A stretch of DNA of 36,701 nucleotides from Chloroflexota bacterium (GTDB lineage: Bacteria > Chloroflexota > Anaerolineae > Anaerolineales > Anaerolineaceae), in assembly GCA_021779955.1 (NCBI GenBank), contig JAJXZS010000050.1, positions 225,237 through 261,937 of the forward strand, read 5' to 3'. This document shows positions 17,680 through 24,881 of this stretch, piece by piece (position 1 is the stretch's first letter; each line of letters opens with the position of its first letter). Under the pieces are notes generated by a model. The model was not told the origin of the DNA and searched no databases. It saw only the letters and a program-made list of their open reading frames with translations. The position numbers and the translations under genes are program-made.

Positions 17680-19065
17680 TCATCCACCTGATGGGGGAGC
17701 GATCAATTGGAGATCCTTGATACTGTTATCGAGAGCCTGCAAGTAATTGATTTGCCCACGAACCATGCCCAACACCCCTTCCTGCAGGATTGGGCTGATC
17801 GAGGACAGGTATTCATTCGAAGGAATGATTCTTGCCGATGTGGCGATTTCATCGAGAACAGAAATGCCGGTTTGGTTCTGCCATTGAGTGAGAATATTTT
17901 TGCTGGCCGGAAGGACATCTGCGGCTTCCGTCCACTGCGCCAGGAATTGAGGATCGGTGAGATATTCTGCCAGAGCCACGATTAGCTGGCGTTTTTCCTC
18001 TGAAGCGTTGGGCAGAACCCACATCCAACCGTTTGCCAGTGTGAAAGACCCTGCATTGACGCCAGGCAAGGGGGCTAACTCGGTGTTTTCCGGTAGATGG
18101 TTGATCACACTGGAGGCCCATACAACGGCATAATTGGCTTTGATATCCAAAAATGCCTGGTAACCCTTATCGAAAGTATCGTAATCGGCCAGCCAATAGG
18201 GAAAGACCTGATTGGTGACGCCTTGATTGATCGCCAGGTAGCTCTTTTTTAGGTCTTCCTGATTGACAACAGTCTTTCCATCGGAGGCTGCCTCCCCTGT
18301 ATCGAGCGAGAGGAGCATCTGTGTTGCCACCAATGCCTGTGGATCGCCCGCTGGAAAGATGACTGGATATCCGCGCGACGTATATTCATTCCACGATTCA
18401 GGCGCGTAACCCACCTGAAGCGGACGGTAAATCATCACCAGAGCGTCTCCGGCAAATACCAGGCCGTAAGTCATCTTCTGGATGCTGCCCAGGTCGCTTG
18501 CATAAGGATATAGCTGCTGGGTAAAGTCTGTGCCGATCAAACCGTCCCAGGGAAGGATCAATCCTTTCAAGACGGCGGTTTCCATGTCAAGGCGGCCCAA
18601 TGCCACCAGGGACGGGATCGCGGAAGGCGCTGCAGCGCTGGTCGTCGAGAGTGAATCAAGCAGTCCTCCCTGCCCGGACTCAGCCTTGACGCGGACCTCG
18701 ATGGTCAGCCCCGGATGCACGTTGATGAACTCATCCAGGCGTTCTTGCAGCAAACGACCTGATTCCGAATCGGATTTTGGGTCGAATTGCGGGGGAACCC
18801 AGACGATCAGATTGTTCTGCTCGCTCTGAAGGGTACTTGTAGTCGATGGCGCTGTTACAGCCTGGGTCGGACTGGATTGTGGCGGTTCAGTGTTGGATGG
18901 AGAGGGATTGGGCGAAGTCGGCAGCAGACTCAAGCCCGATAAGATCGAGCACCCGCCTAAAAGCAGAATGCCAAAGACAGCCCCCGCGAACCTGAACAAT
19001 CGTTTTCCGGCTCCGGCATTGCGGATTCGTGAATCCGCCTGCGGAGCCTTATCCAGGAGCATCAT
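17680..19065 (-). CDS. Extracellular solute-binding lipoprotein (family 1)
   Basis: This is a 461-residue periplasmic-binding-type lipoprotein, expected to capture a sugar, oligosaccharide or peptide for an ABC importer. A hydrophobic segment ends in a lipobox (LLGGC, Cys at about 39), followed by a Ser/Thr/Pro-rich tether of about 45 residues and then the binding fold (NNLIVWVPPQFDP, FINVHPGLTIEVRVKAESG, and so on). Its start overlaps the preceding M42 stop by four bases (ATGA), so it is translationally coupled. No permease or ATPase gene is nearby, which is unusual for a transporter component. It may use permeases encoded elsewhere or serve as a sensor. Confidence 0.82.
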   Translation of the reverse strand: MMLLDKAPQADSRIRNAGAGKRLFRFAGAVFGILLLGGCSILSGLSLLPTSPNPSPSNTEPPQSSPTQAVTAPSTTSTLQSEQNNLIVWVPPQFDPKSDSESGRLLQERLDEFINVHPGLTIEVRVKAESGQGGLLDSLSTTSAAAPSAIPSLVALGRLDMETAVLKGLILPWDGLIGTDFTQQLYPYASDLGSIQKMTYGLVFAGDALVMIYRPLQVGYAPESWNEYTSRGYPVIFPAGDPQALVATQMLLSLDTGEAASDGKTVVNQEDLKKSYLAINQGVTNQVFPYWLADYDTFDKGYQAFLDIKANYAVVWASSVINHLPENTELAPLPGVNAGSFTLANGWMWVLPNASEEKRQLIVALAEYLTDPQFLAQWTEAADVLPASKNILTQWQNQTGISVLDEIATSARIIPSNEYLSSISPILQEGVLGMVRGQINYLQALDNSIKDLQLIAPPSGG

Positions 19066-20060
19066 TTTAATTGCACCGGTCCACCGATCAGTTTTAGCAG
19101 CAATTGTACCGAGCTTTCCAGATCTTTGACATCCACAACTTCAGATGGCGAGTGGACATAGCGGCATGGGATCGAAATTGCGCCGGTTGGCACGCCGGAG
19201 CGGCTGGTTTGGATGACATAGGCATCCGTGCTTCCCTGCCGTAAAATCTCCATCTGGTGAGGGATCGAGGCTTTTTCGGCTGTTTCACGCATCCAGCGAA
19301 CCACGCGCGGGTCGCAGAGCATTCCCGAATCGCGAATCTTGATTGCAGCGCCTTTGCCCAAACCAACTTCCATTTGCTTTGCAGAGGGGGTATCGCCAAC
19401 GCTGGTAACATCCACTGCGATTCCCAGGTCGGGGTCGATGGCGTAAGATGCCGTGACTGCTCCGCGGATGCCCACTTCCTCCTGCACGCTGAAGAGGAAC
19501 ACCAGTTCGTGCGGTGATTTCTTGAGCTGCCGCAGGGTTTCGATCAGCACTGCGCATGAAGAGCGGTTGTCCATTGCCTTGGAGGCGACGCGGGTTCCCA
19601 TATCCATGAATGGACGTTCGAAAACGCCGACATCTCCGATCTTTACAGGGCAATCTTCCGGCGAACTCGCGCCGACATCGATATAGCTTTGGTCGATGGT
19701 CGAGACTTTAGTGTTGTCTTCTCTCGGCTCGCTGTTGATTACACCCCGCGTGCCGTTCAGGAATAACACCCTGCTGGCAGGCAGATACCAGGGGAAGGCA
19801 GCGCCAAGGTTGCCAAAGCGGACAAAGCCCGTTTTTTCCACATGGGTCACGATGACTCCGATCTCATCCATGTGAGCGGAGATCAGGATACGCAAGCCTC
19901 CCTCAGTTTTCTTGCCCTTGCGCACCATCAGGTTGCCCAGCGGGTCCACTTCGATGGAATCGGCGTAAGGCGTCACCTCTTTTTTGATTGCTTCGCGGAT
20001 ATTGTTCTCGTAACCCGAAGGTCCTGAAATCTCGCATAACTTTTGGATGAGTTCTTTCAT
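19062..20060 (-). CDS. M42 family metalloaminopeptidase (third of three)
   Basis: M42 enzymes are cytoplasmic di-metal aminopeptidases that usually form dodecameric tetrahedra and degrade peptides. The protein (332 aa) keeps the family's metal and catalytic residues: SAHMDEIGV, KAMDNRSSCAVL, the Glu pair in VQEEVGIRGA, the Asp in AVDVTSVG, and the His in SIPCRYVHSPSEVVD. ATG at 20060 is chosen because AGGAGTAGGA lies directly upstream; a longer frame would begin at 20087. It lies 42 bases after the preceding M42 gene and overlaps the lipoprotein gene by four bases. It is clearly paralogous to the two upstream genes. Confidence 0.9.
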   Translation of the reverse strand: MKELIQKLCEISGPSGYENNIREAIKKEVTPYADSIEVDPLGNLMVRKGKKTEGGLRILISAHMDEIGVIVTHVEKTGFVRFGNLGAAFPWYLPASRVLFLNGTRGVINSEPREDNTKVSTIDQSYIDVGASSPEDCPVKIGDVGVFERPFMDMGTRVASKAMDNRSSCAVLIETLRQLKKSPHELVFLFSVQEEVGIRGAVTASYAIDPDLGIAVDVTSVGDTPSAKQMEVGLGKGAAIKIRDSGMLCDPRVVRWMRETAEKASIPHQMEILRQGSTDAYVIQTSRSGVPTGAISIPCRYVHSPSEVVDVKDLESSVQLLLKLIGGPVQLK

Positions 20061-20102
20061 TCCTACTCCTGCATTGATGGAAAGCATATGGCTTGCATTT
20101 TA

Positions 20103-21194
20103 TCAGTTACGATCCGGCGCAAGGATAGCGGGGGTCAGGTCGTTCAAGGCAGCATAGATGAGTTTGAGGGTGTTTTCCCAATCGGCAAGGCGCGCAAGCA
20201 ATACCGGTGTATGGGCATACCTTCCGGGTATGGAAACCGAGACCACAGGGATGCCGCCGAGCACTTTGTGGATGACTCCTGCATTTGTTCCGCCGCCCCC
20301 AGGCTGGCGATATTGAAATGGAATGGCGTATTTTTCAGCAGTCTGCGCGAGAAACCGGATCAGCCGCGGGTCGGAGATCGTCCCTGCATCAGCAACATAG
20401 ATGGCGGGTCCCTCATCCAGCTTGCAGTTGTATACGCTGTTTTCCTTCTGGTCCGGTCTGGGCAGGTCGATCGCCGGAGTCGAGTCGATGGCAATGGCAA
20501 GATCGGGATGCAGCGCGACCGCTGCGATCTTGGCCCCGCGCAGGCCAAGCTCTTCCTGGACGGAAAAGGACGCCAGTAATTCGATCTGGTTGGGATGACG
20601 TTTGATCAGTTCGATCAGGGTTGCCACGCCAAGGCGGTCGTCGAGTGCCTTGCCCATCAAGCTTGGTCCGGCCTGCACGAACCTCGTGGCGAAAGTTCCC
20701 ATGTCGCCGGGGTTCACCTTGCCCGCATTCCCTGGGCCGAGATCGACCCGCAGGCTCTTCTGAGGAATCGCAGCGTGAAGTTCGTCGGTATCGGCGAGAT
20801 GGATGGGCTTTGCGCCGATGATGCCTGCCAGATGGTCTTTGCCGACCAAAACGGCCTTCCCCGGCAGCTGACGTTGGTCAACGCCGCCCAGCATTTCGAA
20901 GGAATAGATACCGTCGCCTTCGTCTTCGACGATCATGAATCCTACTTCGTCCATGTGCGCGTCGAGCATCACCCGAATCGGGTGATCAGACTTTGACTTA
21001 CACGTGACCAGCACATTCCCCATCGCATCGACAGTGATGTCATCGCTGTAGGGCTTTACGGAATCGATCACGATTTGGCGAACTTCTCGTTCGTCTCCAG
21101 ATACGGAAACGGCGTTGCTCAATCTTTCCAGAAGGGAGATTTGGGAGGAGTCGATCGTAGGCAGTTCGAGGTTTGTTTTGATTTTCGGATTCAT
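20103..21194 (-). CDS. M42 family metalloaminopeptidase (second of three)
   Basis: This 363-residue M42 peptidase has the complete residue set: DAHMDEVGFMI, KALDDRLGVATL, VQEELGLRGAKIAA with the catalytic Glu pair, IDSTP, and SIPGRYAHTP. Its N terminus is longer than that of its neighbours (about 25 extra residues before LLERLSNAVSVSGDE). The start overlaps the upstream M42 stop by four bases (ATGA), indicating translational coupling. Substrate preference (Glu, Leu, Lys or other N-terminal residues) cannot be told from sequence by eye. Differences from the neighbours around the Asp ligand (DSTP versus DVTF and DVTS) suggest the three copies do not share one specificity. Confidence 0.9.
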   Translation of the reverse strand: MNPKIKTNLELPTIDSSQISLLERLSNAVSVSGDEREVRQIVIDSVKPYSDDITVDAMGNVLVTCKSKSDHPIRVMLDAHMDEVGFMIVEDEGDGIYSFEMLGGVDQRQLPGKAVLVGKDHLAGIIGAKPIHLADTDELHAAIPQKSLRVDLGPGNAGKVNPGDMGTFATRFVQAGPSLMGKALDDRLGVATLIELIKRHPNQIELLASFSVQEELGLRGAKIAAVALHPDLAIAIDSTPAIDLPRPDQKENSVYNCKLDEGPAIYVADAGTISDPRLIRFLAQTAEKYAIPFQYRQPGGGGTNAGVIHKVLGGIPVVSVSIPGRYAHTPVLLARLADWENTLKLIYAALNDLTPAILAPDRN

Positions 21195-22270
21195 GCTTTC
21201 CGCTCCCCGAAGATTTTTTCCATTGTATCCGTTTCGAGTTGAGTGATGAAACGAGCCAGCAGACGTCCGGTTCGCTGGATATCTTTCAACACCACCATCT
21301 CAAGCGGAGTGTGCATGTATCTGAGCGGGATGCCCAATACTGCGCAGGGAATGCCTTCTTCAGAGACCTGAATGGCCATTGCATCCGTCCCGGAAGACTT
21401 GGGCATATATTCCATGGCGTAGGGCAAATCCATCTCGTCTGCAAGCGTTTTGAAGTATTTGCCCAATGCAGGGTGCATGTTCGAGCCGACGCCAATCGTC
21501 GGGCCTTTGCCCGCTGCGAATGTATGATAATCGGTCACGCCGGGACCTTTGGCAAATGTGACATCGACAACCACCGCAATATCGGGTTTGATCTCGTATG
21601 CCGACGTACGGGCGCCGACCAGGGTTTCTTCTTCCTGCGTGGTAGCGACTGCCCAAACGTCCCAGGCAAGGTTGAACTTGCGGATCTCTTCGAGGCACAA
21701 TGTGAGTGCGGCCACCGATGCCCTGTTGTCCAGCGAGTGACCTGCCAATGCCCCTCCGCTCATTTCTTGAGGAGGCGTGGCAAAAGAGACCAGATCACCC
21801 AGTTTGACAAGGTCGCTTACTTCATTTATTGGGAGACCCGTATCGATGAAGAGGTCGGTAATGCCTGGCGGACTGCCTGCCTTCGACTTGTCCTGCAGCC
21901 TGTCTGGGATCATCTGCAAAATTCCGGGGAGTTCGCGCTTCCCATGCACGGTGACCATTTGGCCAACCAGGATGCGAAGATCGAGGCCGCCGATGGACAT
22001 GACCCGCAGCAGCCCATCGTCCAGACCGGCGACCATCAATCCGATGGCGTCCATATGCGTTGCGATCAGCACCGAATGATGGTCCCCTTTGACGTTTGCC
22101 CGGCGTAATCCATGCAGACTGCCGAGTTTGCTTACGCTCAATTCATCGACCAGCGGTTGCCAGGTTCTGGCTATCGGCTCTCTCACGGGGCTTTCGTATC
22201 CTGAAAGTCCGGGCAGGCTGATCATTTCTTTGAGGAACGTTGATAGATCGATCATGGTTTTGATGTGCAT
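21191..22270 (-). CDS. M42 family metalloaminopeptidase (first of three)
   Basis: This is the first of three tandem M42 peptidases (359 aa). The motifs are ATHMDAIGLMV, HSLDNRASVAAL, the Glu run in TTQEEETLVGARTS, VVDVTFAKGPG, and GIPLRYMHTPLEMV. The residue after the first Asp is Ala rather than the Glu seen in the other two copies (HMDA versus HMDE), and its QEE motif is followed by ETLVG rather than the usual LGxRG. The frame is open upstream to 22519, but that part is a Pro/Arg/Gln-rich shadow of the preceding gene. ATG at 22270, one base after that gene's TAG, is preferred; ATG at 22255 is an alternative. Confidence 0.88.
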   Translation of the reverse strand: MHIKTMIDLSTFLKEMISLPGLSGYESPVREPIARTWQPLVDELSVSKLGSLHGLRRANVKGDHHSVLIATHMDAIGLMVAGLDDGLLRVMSIGGLDLRILVGQMVTVHGKRELPGILQMIPDRLQDKSKAGSPPGITDLFIDTGLPINEVSDLVKLGDLVSFATPPQEMSGGALAGHSLDNRASVAALTLCLEEIRKFNLAWDVWAVATTQEEETLVGARTSAYEIKPDIAVVVDVTFAKGPGVTDYHTFAAGKGPTIGVGSNMHPALGKYFKTLADEMDLPYAMEYMPKSSGTDAMAIQVSEEGIPCAVLGIPLRYMHTPLEMVVLKDIQRTGRLLARFITQLETDTMEKIFGERKA

Positions 22271-22271
22271 C

Positions 22272-22679
22272 CTAGGGAGTGGAATTGGCGGTTCCTGTGC
22301 TTTGAGGGCTTGGAGATGGGGTTGCAGTAGGTGTGTCTGTAGGGGTATGCGTAGGCGTAAGTGAAGGCGTGGGGGTCTTTGATGGCGTCGAGGTAGGGAT
22401 AAAATACGTGGCTGTAACGGTGAAAGTGGCCGTTGGGGTTGGTGTTTCGGTGATCGTGGGGGTAAATAACGTGGCCGTGGGAGTGTAAAGAGTGGGAGTT
22501 GCGCTTGCTGATACTGCACCCTCGGTCTGCGTTACGGTAGGAGTAGCCGTTCTTGCCGCGAGCGCGGCATTCCCCACCCAAAGCACAATCAATCCCAGTA
22601 GATAGAATGGAATGGTCGCCAAAATGATGATCAGCAGCGCAGTTTGAAGGCGCGATCGCTTAGGTTTTTCTTCCGCCAT
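22272..22679 (-). CDS. Membrane-anchored Thr/Pro-rich protein
   Basis: No family is recognised. The 135-residue protein has a short basic cytoplasmic N terminus (EEKPKRSR), one membrane helix at about residues 13-38, and a tail of about 95 residues that is nearly all Thr, Pro, Ser and Ala. That composition is typical of an extended extracytoplasmic stalk and a candidate for O-glycosylation. It is the first gene of the M42 operon, with a strong promoter just upstream. The tail lacks any globular domain, so it may tether or space something at the membrane. This tail type recurs in the lipoprotein and small membrane protein at the other end of the operon. Confidence 0.7.
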   Translation of the reverse strand: MAEEKPKRSRLQTALLIIILATIPFYLLGLIVLWVGNAALAARTATPTVTQTEGAVSASATPTLYTPTATLFTPTITETPTPTATFTVTATYFIPTSTPSKTPTPSLTPTHTPTDTPTATPSPSPQSTGTANSTP

Positions 22680-22782: not shown

Positions 22783-23784
22783 TTACTTGCCCGACTTGTT
22801 GAAATCGAGTGCCACTGCGCTCTGAACCTGGCGAATCTCTTGCTGCACGGTTACCACCAGGCTCTCAGCCTTAAGGTCGGTTATCGTGTAGCACGGGCTG
22901 TCGAGGTGGTCTGCAAGCGTCTGCGCGAAACCCTGGTCGAAGGCGGCGTGTTCCATGTTGATCACCACGCTGTGGATGTTTTCCTTGCAGATTAGTTCGG
23001 CGACGTAATGAGCTTCTTCCTGCGGCGGCATGTGACCCATCGAAACGTTGCCTGCGCCGTCGGTCAGGATGATGAGCAGCGGCATGATATCCGGGTGGAG
23101 GATCTTTTCACGCCGCAGCACTTCATAGGCCATCATCAGGCCGGCGCTCAAGGGTGTCTTACCCCCCACGGGGATGTCTGAGAGGGCTTCCTGGGCCAGC
23201 AAGACCGAGTTCGTCGGCGGCAGCACCAGCGTTGCCTGCGACTTCTGGAAGACGATCAACCCCACCCTGTCGCGGCGTTGATAAGCGTCCGTCAGGAGGG
23301 AAAGGATGGCGCCCTTGGTGGCTGCCATTCGCTCGGCGACTGCCATCGACCACGAAGCATCCACGAGAAACAGGATAAGGTTGGCAGCACGCCGAACCCG
23401 GATCTTCTTCATGTAATCCGAAGGGCGGATAGCGAAGGCGACTTTGTTGCGGTGCTTGATCTCGCCGCGTTCTCGCTGGAAGGGCGCCGCTGCACGCAAG
23501 GTGGCGTCAAATGCCAGGTCGTTGGTCTTACCGCCGGCCGGGCGGGCTTGAATGTAACGGCCGCGCTTGCGTTCGGTATGGGTGACCGAACGGCGGCCGG
23601 CGTACGAACGCATCATCTTGTCCAGCGGAGTATCCAGCTTACGCGGATTGAATTCCTCCCCGTTGGGCATTCGCTGCCCCCCGGTCCACCAGTTGGCGTT
23701 GCCTTGTTCGAATACGTTTTGGGGAGCAGGCTCGGGATTACCTTCGTCAGGCCGTTGCTCGCCGGACTCTTCCGGCGTTACACT
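22783..23784 (-). CDS. VWA-domain half of metal chelatase (ChlD/CobT-like), read by -1 frameshift
   Basis: This is the C-terminal half of a cobalto-/magnesium-chelatase medium subunit, which binds the insertion complex through a VWA/MIDAS domain. The MIDAS motif DASWSM is followed by the Thr in GGKTPLS and the Asp in LTDGAGN. An ATG at 23670 could start a 295-residue protein, but the frame is open and protein-like well upstream (acidic Pro/Glu linker, then NANWWTGGQR). It reaches exactly to the A7 run at 23784-23790, where the preceding AAA+ gene ends one codon later in the 0 frame. Slipping back one base there joins the two halves into a 699-residue protein, the normal size for the fused chelatase subunit. 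The ATG at 23670 has only a G run upstream and no convincing Shine-Dalgarno sequence. Confidence 0.82.
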   Translation of the reverse strand, partial: SVTPEESGEQRPDEGNPEPAPQNVFEQGNANWWTGGQRMPNGEEFNPRKLDTPLDKMMRSYAGRRSVTHTERKRGRYIQARPAGGKTNDLAFDATLRAAAPFQRERGEIKHRNKVAFAIRPSDYMKKIRVRRAANLILFLVDASWSMAVAERMAATKGAILSLLTDAYQRRDRVGLIVFQKSQATLVLPPTNSVLLAQEALSDIPVGGKTPLSAGLMMAYEVLRREKILHPDIMPLLIILTDGAGNVSMGHMPPQEEAHYVAELICKENIHSVVINMEHAAFDQGFAQTLADHLDSPCYTITDLKAESLVVTVQQEIRQVQSAVALDFNKSGK

Positions 23785-23807
23785 TTTTTTGAGGAACTGC
23801 CTTCTTC
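23760..23807 (-). promoter_or_regulatory. Programmed -1 ribosomal frameshift signal (candidate)
   Basis: In order on the minus strand: a Shine-Dalgarno-like GAAGAAGG (23807-23800); 9 bases; the slippery heptamer A AAA AAA in 0 frame (23790-23784); a 6-base spacer containing the 0-frame TAA (23778-23780); then a perfect 7-bp stem CGCCGGA / TCCGGCG with loop AGAG (23777-23760). This is the same arrangement as the E. coli dnaX frameshift site. Confidence 0.8.
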
Positions 23808-24881
23808 ATCGCCCAGTTCAGACTGCGATTCCTGCCTGGTTTGTGAGGCTGCTTGCTTTTGCAGTTGCTCGATGCGTTCCTGCAGTTCTTCCATGCCCAT
23901 TTCTTCGCGCTGGAAGGGCCCGCTCTTCAGGCGGTGCGGCAGCGCCAGTTCAGCAGCCAGGGCGATGTCGCGGTCGGTGATCGAGGTGCGGCCTTCGAAT
24001 GCAGCCTGGGCGCGGGCAGCCTTGAGGATCACCAGGTCAGCCCGGTGACCATCGACATTGAGCGAAGACGTAAGAGCAGCGATTGAAAGCAGGTTGCTGC
24101 TGGTATAGCGGACTTCGTCCACCAAATAGCGGCCTTTGTCGATCTGTTCGGAGAGCTCTTTTTCTTTGCTCATCCATTCGTCTCTGAAATGGCCCGGATC
24201 GGCTTCATAAGCCAGGTTGCGTTCCATGATCTGAACGCGGTCGCGTGCATCGCGGATGCCGCGAATCTCGACTGAAAGCGCAAACCGGTCGAGCAATTGC
24301 GGGCGTAGATCGCCTTCCTCTGGATTCATCGTTCCAACGAGGATGAAGCGTGCAGGGTGGGTAAACGAGATGCCCTCGCGTTCGACAATGTTCATGCCCA
24401 TCGCGGCGGCATCGAGAAGCACATCGACCACATGATCGTCGAGCAGGTTGACTTCGTCGATATAGAGCATGCCGCGATTCGCTGCAGCAAGCACGCCCGG
24501 CTCGAACGCGCGTACACCCTTCTGGATCGCTTTCTCGATATCGAGCGTTCCAACAACGCGGTCTTCAGTGGCCGAGACGGGCAGGTTGACGAATGGGGTC
24601 ACCCGCATCGCCACGGGCAGGCTTTCACCGCGGTCGTGCCGTTCCCGGCACTCGGTGCACCACTGCGCCGGCCGGTCGGGATCGCAGCCGAAGCGGCAAT
24701 CTGCAACGACTTTGACCTGGGGCAGCAGCGCGGCAAGCGCCCTGGCTGCGGTCGACTTGGCAGTTCCGCGTTCTCCACGGATGAGCACACCCCCGATGCG
24801 GGGATCAACGGCGTTTAAAACCAGGGCTCGGCGCATACGCTCCTGCCCTACAATTGCGGTAAACGGATAGATAGCTGGCAT
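23778..24881 (-). CDS. AAA+ metal chelatase subunit (ChlI/BchI/CobS-like)
   Basis: In the 0 frame this gene gives a 367-residue AAA+ ATPase like the small (I) subunit of magnesium and cobalt chelatases, which drives metal insertion into a tetrapyrrole. Walker A is GERGTAKST (36-44) and Walker B is GMLYIDEVNLLDDH. A cysteine cluster (DCRFGC, then WCTEC, about residues 61-80) is typical of the cobaltochelatase-related group. ITDRDIALAAELALPHRL marks the C-terminal lid. It ends in a charged tail cut by TAA right after an A7 run. With a -1 shift there, the same ribosome would continue into the VWA half. One gene could therefore supply both I-type and D-type subunits. AGGA lies about 9 bases before the ATG; no clear promoter was found. 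Confidence 0.9.
   Translation of the reverse strand: MPAIYPFTAIVGQERMRRALVLNAVDPRIGGVLIRGERGTAKSTAARALAALLPQVKVVADCRFGCDPDRPAQWCTECRERHDRGESLPVAMRVTPFVNLPVSATEDRVVGTLDIEKAIQKGVRAFEPGVLAAANRGMLYIDEVNLLDDHVVDVLLDAAAMGMNIVEREGISFTHPARFILVGTMNPEEGDLRPQLLDRFALSVEIRGIRDARDRVQIMERNLAYEADPGHFRDEWMSKEKELSEQIDKGRYLVDEVRYTSSNLLSIAALTSSLNVDGHRADLVILKAARAQAAFEGRTSITDRDIALAAELALPHRLKSGPFQREEMGMEELQERIEQLQKQAASQTRQESQSELGDEEGSSSKKV

Follow-up and report, generated by a model that had tools for sequence, protein, structure and literature searches.

Frameshifted chlD genes (fs-chlD) consist of an AAA+ half and a VWA half, and a -1 shift at a poly-A site followed by RNA structure connects the two; the earlier main paper on them is reportedly that of Antonov, published in 2020 in Mol Biol Evol. 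Genes of this class, with Anaerolineaceae included, are described in the available parts of PMC9227772 and PMC3711429. According to the same part of PMC9227772, they also occur in bacteria that lack a chelatase large subunit or the B12/chlorophyll pathways, Brevefilum among them, and four Anaerolineaceae named there have a separate ChlI-like gene. In dnaX of E. coli an A heptamer (A_AAA_AAG) is followed by a hairpin a few nucleotides downstream and one gene gives two AAA+ proteins, the shifted product being the short one (PMC5009743, in the part available). Such domains also make up the small and medium subunits of the CobNST cobaltochelatase and the ChlIDH magnesium chelatase (TIGR02442; PDB entries 1g8p and 2x31).

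The window (the whole stretch of DNA analysed, 36,701 nucleotides) contains a chlD-like gene that belongs to this already published class. Its halves lie in frames offset by -1, an A-rich slippery site marks the junction, and RNA structure lies downstream. It differs from the published fs-chlD genes in the selection on the stem at synonymous sites, in a link between short runs and strong helices across its relatives and in the lack of a separate ChlI-like gene in this genus among the matches listed. With dnaX it shares the heptamer, the nearby hairpin and a predicted output of two AAA+ proteins, but the heptamer reads A_AAA_AAA, the shifted product would be the long one and no listed SD sequence was found upstream in the window. 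The small and medium subunit domains of CobNST and ChlIDH are present, whereas the large subunit (PF02514) was not found in this genome. The coordinates are given in Table 1.

Table 1. Features of the chlD-like gene and its frameshift junction (positions in the window).
Feature	Position	Strand	Basis or remark
Zero-frame ORF, ChlI-like AAA+ subunit, 367 aa (short product)	23778..24881	minus	TIGR02442, PDB relatives
-1 frame part: linker and VWA with DASWS (333 aa beyond the slip)	22783..23784	minus	VWA_2, TIGR02442
SD-like GAAGAAGG	23807-23800	minus	letters present; weak, probably no essential stimulator
Slippery heptamer AAAAAAA, A_AAA_AAA	23790-23784	minus	sequence; zero-frame reading TCA AAA AAA GTG TAA
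Spacer GTGTAA between run and stem	23783-23778	minus	sequence
Zero-frame stop TAA, one codon past the run	23778..23780	minus	sequence
Hairpin CGCCGGA-AGAG-TCCGGCG, starting 6 nt after the run	23760..23777	minus	7/7 pairs
Stem arms CGCCGGA and TCCGGCG; loop AGAG	23777-23771 and 23766-23760	minus	

The sequence-only reading had given the layout as SD-like letters, 9 bases, A AAA AAA, a 6-base spacer with the TAA and a 7-bp stem. Re-reading of the minus strand confirmed this order, 9 bases separating GAAGAAGG from the A7 run. Translation likewise bore out the proposed fusion of a ChlI-type and a VWA half, in which a -1 slip gives 366 + 333 = 699 residues with the junction peptide SSKKSVTP. A bare A7 run is common (5 in the window versus 6.4 expected) and was rejected as evidence in itself. 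The stretch downstream folds moderately better than its shuffles (z of -2.01 and -1.6 in two computations), and the helix anchored downstream of the run has p 0.03 against shuffles. The junction stands above chance because the run is conserved in all 185 -1 splits described below and the synonymous sites of the stem are invariant.

Both halves are conserved as proteins. The zero-frame half, with GERGTAKS at residue 36, matches positions 1-348 of TIGR02442 (putative cobaltochelatase) with 513.7 bits; its PDB relatives are ChlI (8osf, 6l8d) and the 38 kDa magnesium chelatase subunit (1g8p). The -1 half matches positions 354-640 with 265.4 bits, contains a VWA_2 domain match and has the 60 kDa magnesium chelatase subunit (2x31) as its PDB relative. 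Only the joined product scores above the TIGR02442 cut-off (791 versus 779.45 bits); each half alone falls below it. The ChlI/ChlD equivalog cut-offs are not reached by the joined product (435.3 versus 466.95 bits for TIGR02030; 443.4 versus 499.55 bits for TIGR02031), and the zero-frame half scores 437.8 bits against TIGR02030, also under 466.95.

Conservation was assessed on two sets. In a contig scan, the best 80 of 329 loci were used, all from Chloroflexota and many from Anaerolineaceae or Anaerolineales; an A7-A10 run is present at the junction in all 80 and in the window. The set was then widened with stretches from genomes of the order and family of the window to 244 loci or stretches. 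Both halves were present in 239, and L161, L162, L164, L165 and L242 were dropped since one half was absent. A further 47 of the 239 were dropped as repeats of the same junction, leaving 192 distinct junctions with the window included. The -1 split is found in 185 of these 192, every one with an A7-A10 run (A7 25, A8 5, A9 124, A10 31). Among the 116 distinct -1 splits of an earlier set, the two frames overlap by as little as 13-16 nt, so the shift is pinned to the run. Isolates with the -1 split include Anaerolinea thermolimosa, Longilinea arvoryzae and Leptolinea tardivitalis. In the clade that forms the genus of the window, A7 and the split are common to all 14 distinct sequences. In the comparison of orthologues proposed with the sequence-only reading, the run is kept at all 185 distinct -1 junctions and the stem in the 14 genus sequences.

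The seven exceptions are L027 (A10) and L232 (A11), both +1; L133 and L247, in frame; L158 and L159, +1; and L160, in frame. L158, L159 and L160 are diverged copies with about 50% and about 40% identity in the two halves and no A run at the junction. The junctions of L247 (G293), L027 and L232 (G327), with A10 or A11 and in frame or +1, are possibly one-base assembly errors in the run and possibly real. L133 (G013:C2:93100-95600) is a second gene copy with a single open frame of 703 codons, and its junction lacks the A run. An uninterrupted orthologue had been named in advance as evidence against the frameshift. One such frame does exist in the genus, yet its genome (G013, of the same genus, with a contamination estimate of 6%) also carries a normal frameshifted copy. 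L133 is therefore better accounted for by duplication and fusion than by a mistake in the sequence of the window.

Selection on the hairpin was examined at fourfold-degenerate columns of the VWA half, 117 of which are shared by all 14 distinct genus sequences. Those within the stem are invariant (4/4), compared with 1 of 113 elsewhere. The 14 sequences were chosen by CGCCGG after the stop, which fixes the 5' arm and hence two of the four stem columns; the two columns of the 3' arm are independent of this filter. The same 14 form one complete and fully supported clade of 14 tree rows, from which no distinct member was dropped. Since synonymous sites are held invariant, the hairpin is, judged from this alignment, selected at the RNA level. 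The perfect 7-bp stem-loop of the sequence-only reading is well supported.

The upstream element fared differently. It had been claimed that every stimulatory element is present, but GAAGAAGG contains none of the tested SD sequences listed in the available part of PMC4066793, and none of these occurs in the window at 6-17 nt upstream of the run. By the same list an SD sequence is missing at this place from 7 of the 14 genus sequences, that of the window among them. About 14% of the in-frame positions of the gene pair with the anti-SD as well as or better than GAAGAAGG. Being unlisted, unconserved and within this background, the element was rejected as a conserved stimulator at the window site, and a complete dnaX-like cassette is not a safe label, given the unlisted GAAGAAGG and the seven genus sequences without an SD. 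As a group, short-run sites are enriched in listed SD sequences (16/30 versus a control rate of 9%), as are long-run sites (38/155 versus 8%); the enrichment may partly be explained by the codons of the acidic linker.

The length of the run was compared with the RNA structure that follows it. A site was counted as having a helix when one of -10 kcal/mol or better started 4-12 nt after the run; this anchored measure was adopted after the fold z-score results had been seen. Such a helix is present at all 30 A7/A8 sites and at 14 of the 155 A9/A10 sites. Compared with 40 shuffled versions of its own stretch, the anchored helix reaches p 0.05 at 26/30 short and 15/155 long runs. The short-site helices are of about seven unrelated sequence types as judged by eye, for example CTCTGGCGAG/CTCGCCAGAG in L032 and CTGAGGG/CCCTCAG in L020. 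Mean fold z-scores by run are -2.73 for A7, -2.38 for A8, -0.14 for A9 and -0.82 for A10. The z-score was rejected as the measure of the stem, as a cut-off of -1.64 missed sequences holding the CGCCGG stem. The published hairpin rule was rejected as a discriminator: it is passed by 30/30 short runs, 86/155 long runs and about 75% of control positions, and is too permissive to separate the sites from the controls.

The register follows the same division. All 25 A7 sites are in the sole register that reads A_AAA_AAA and all five A8 sites contain it, whereas A9 runs occupy all three registers; in 29 of the 30 A7/A8 sites the stop starts 3 nt downstream of the run. The Fisher and rank tests count relatives as if they were independent, and their p values are not taken as probabilities. 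The tree needs only seven changes between short and long runs, that is, few independent lineages. Paired tests on it gave no direction with the z cut-off (1.9 for, 2.1 against) and 3-4 for and none against with the anchored helix (five pairs, p 0.125, the pairs being too few to reach 0.05). When genes of this family were tested in E. coli, frameshifting was 10% for A7, 40% for A9 and 63% for A11 (PMC3711429, in the part available). The short-run helices and the A7/A8 register, taken with the 10% for A7 against the 40% for A9, fit ribosomal slipping in which the helix offsets the weaker run. The relation between run length and helix may be new: it was absent from the literature consulted, although the 2020 chlD work may hold it.

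The split, its conservation, the run in its register and the selection on the stem are established from sequence; that ribosomes slip in vivo, how often they do so and how the products assemble is what we infer from them. The gene very probably encodes two proteins, of 367 and 699 aa, through programmed -1 ribosomal frameshifting. Without a slip, translation would end at the TAA and release the 367-aa ChlI-like AAA+ subunit. Some ribosomes, delayed by the hairpin while lysine tRNAs occupy A_AAA_AAA, would move back one base and continue in the -1 frame, producing the 699-aa AAA+/linker/VWA (ChlD-like) subunit. The two forms would share the AAA+ core and most likely assemble at a ratio set by the slip rate, like gamma and tau of dnaX. 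The -1 shift between the AAA+ and VWA halves, as the sequence-only reading had it, agrees with the split in 185/192 junctions and the run in 185/185.

The same two products could arise from slippage of the RNA polymerase, in which transcripts that gained one A would bring the VWA half into the zero frame, as happens at the A9/T9 run of Thermus thermophilus dnaX. The long runs suit this explanation: A9 or A10, a length known for such slippage (PMC5009743 and PMC3711429, in the parts available), is found in 155/185 junctions, and only 14 of these 155 are followed by a strong helix. The run of the window is A7, however, all 25 A7 sites keep a ribosomal register of which the polymerase has no need, and the stem is under selection; for this gene we regard polymerase slippage as unlikely. 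An explanation by two separate genes, with the VWA half made alone by re-initiation after the zero-frame stop, draws on the overlap of the halves, the closeness of the stop to the shift site, an ATG in the -1 frame of the window with 295 codons left to its end, and a first start codon that precedes the end of the overlap in 16/116 of the earlier set. Against it, the earliest possible start codon (ATG, GTG or TTG) in the -1 frame of the window is this ATG at 23670, about 110 nt past the stop, and initiation there would omit linker sequence that is conserved in the relatives. In the other 115 sequences, too, the first start codon often lies at least 50 nt past the stop. As re-initiation accounts for neither the conserved A run nor its register, it is highly improbable.

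Two frames at an A run would also result from a miscounted homopolymer in the assembly or from a pseudogene. The genome is in 56 contigs, runs are prone to error and L027, L232 and L247 may themselves be one-base errors of this kind. On the other hand, A7 and the split occur in all 14 genus sequences, isolates also have the -1 split and both halves are conserved. Because 185 of the 192 junctions keep the -1 split, all with A7-A10, an error is so very unlikely as to be negligible. We retain programmed ribosomal frameshifting for this gene.

The identity of the product as a metal chelatase, assumed earlier, did not hold up as well. CobN/ChlH (PF02514) was found in 0/61 genomes, that of the window included, while the same search was positive in 5/14 control genomes. 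Across the class it was detected in 18/199 genomes, 17 of which scored above the cut-off, and the order of the window is not represented among the 18. CbiC was not found in the genome of the window and is present in 5/61. With CobN/ChlH in 0/61 genomes, the classical metal chelatase function is not supported. A separate ChlI-like gene, with 36-42% identity, is present in 28/45 relatives outside the genus and in 0/16 genomes of the same genus, that of the window included, in both cases among the matches listed. In this genus the frameshifted gene thus looks, from gene content, like the only source of both subunits. In the two relatives examined for it, the separate gene is about 400 aa long and below the ChlI cut-off; it lies beside rsmD in L261 (2729-3976) and one gene from rsmD in L262 (2553-3746), with a URO-D/MtaA-like gene between. 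From the absence of CobN/ChlH, the AAA+/VWA machine probably acts on something other than the classical chelatase partner, and the pair might be a candidate MoxR/VWA-like activator of another enzyme. The available part of PMC9227772 also leaves open the target of fs-chlD proteins in bacteria without the large subunit.

The gene neighbourhood was surveyed in 81 loci, 57 of them with at least 5 kb on both sides. Among the matches listed for these 81 loci there is no constant partner that would explain the function, and the neighbours seen in the window recur in a minority. Three consecutive M42-type aminopeptidase genes lie downstream of the chelatase-like gene (window 19062-22519, minus strand), and M42 peptidase relatives are nearby in at least 19/81 loci. 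Directly downstream, a 135-aa ORF (22272-22679, minus strand) has a hydrophobic stretch and no Pfam match; its relatives are at the same place in at least 13/81 loci.

Within one order, the same gene may have taken two routes, a scenario that we consider possible but on balance doubtful. A9-A10 runs would work without structure, perhaps through RNA polymerase slippage, and A7-A8 runs through the ribosome with unrelated helices acquired repeatedly. The output of two proteins would be kept throughout, for an AAA+/VWA machine that serves another target without the large subunit. As an example of programmed frameshifting in a cellular gene the locus is clean and well conserved, and its hairpin is selected at synonymous sites. 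Its relatives form a natural series for the trade-off between run length and RNA structure, and they widen a published puzzle, the role of ChlI/ChlD-like proteins where the chelatase large subunit is missing.
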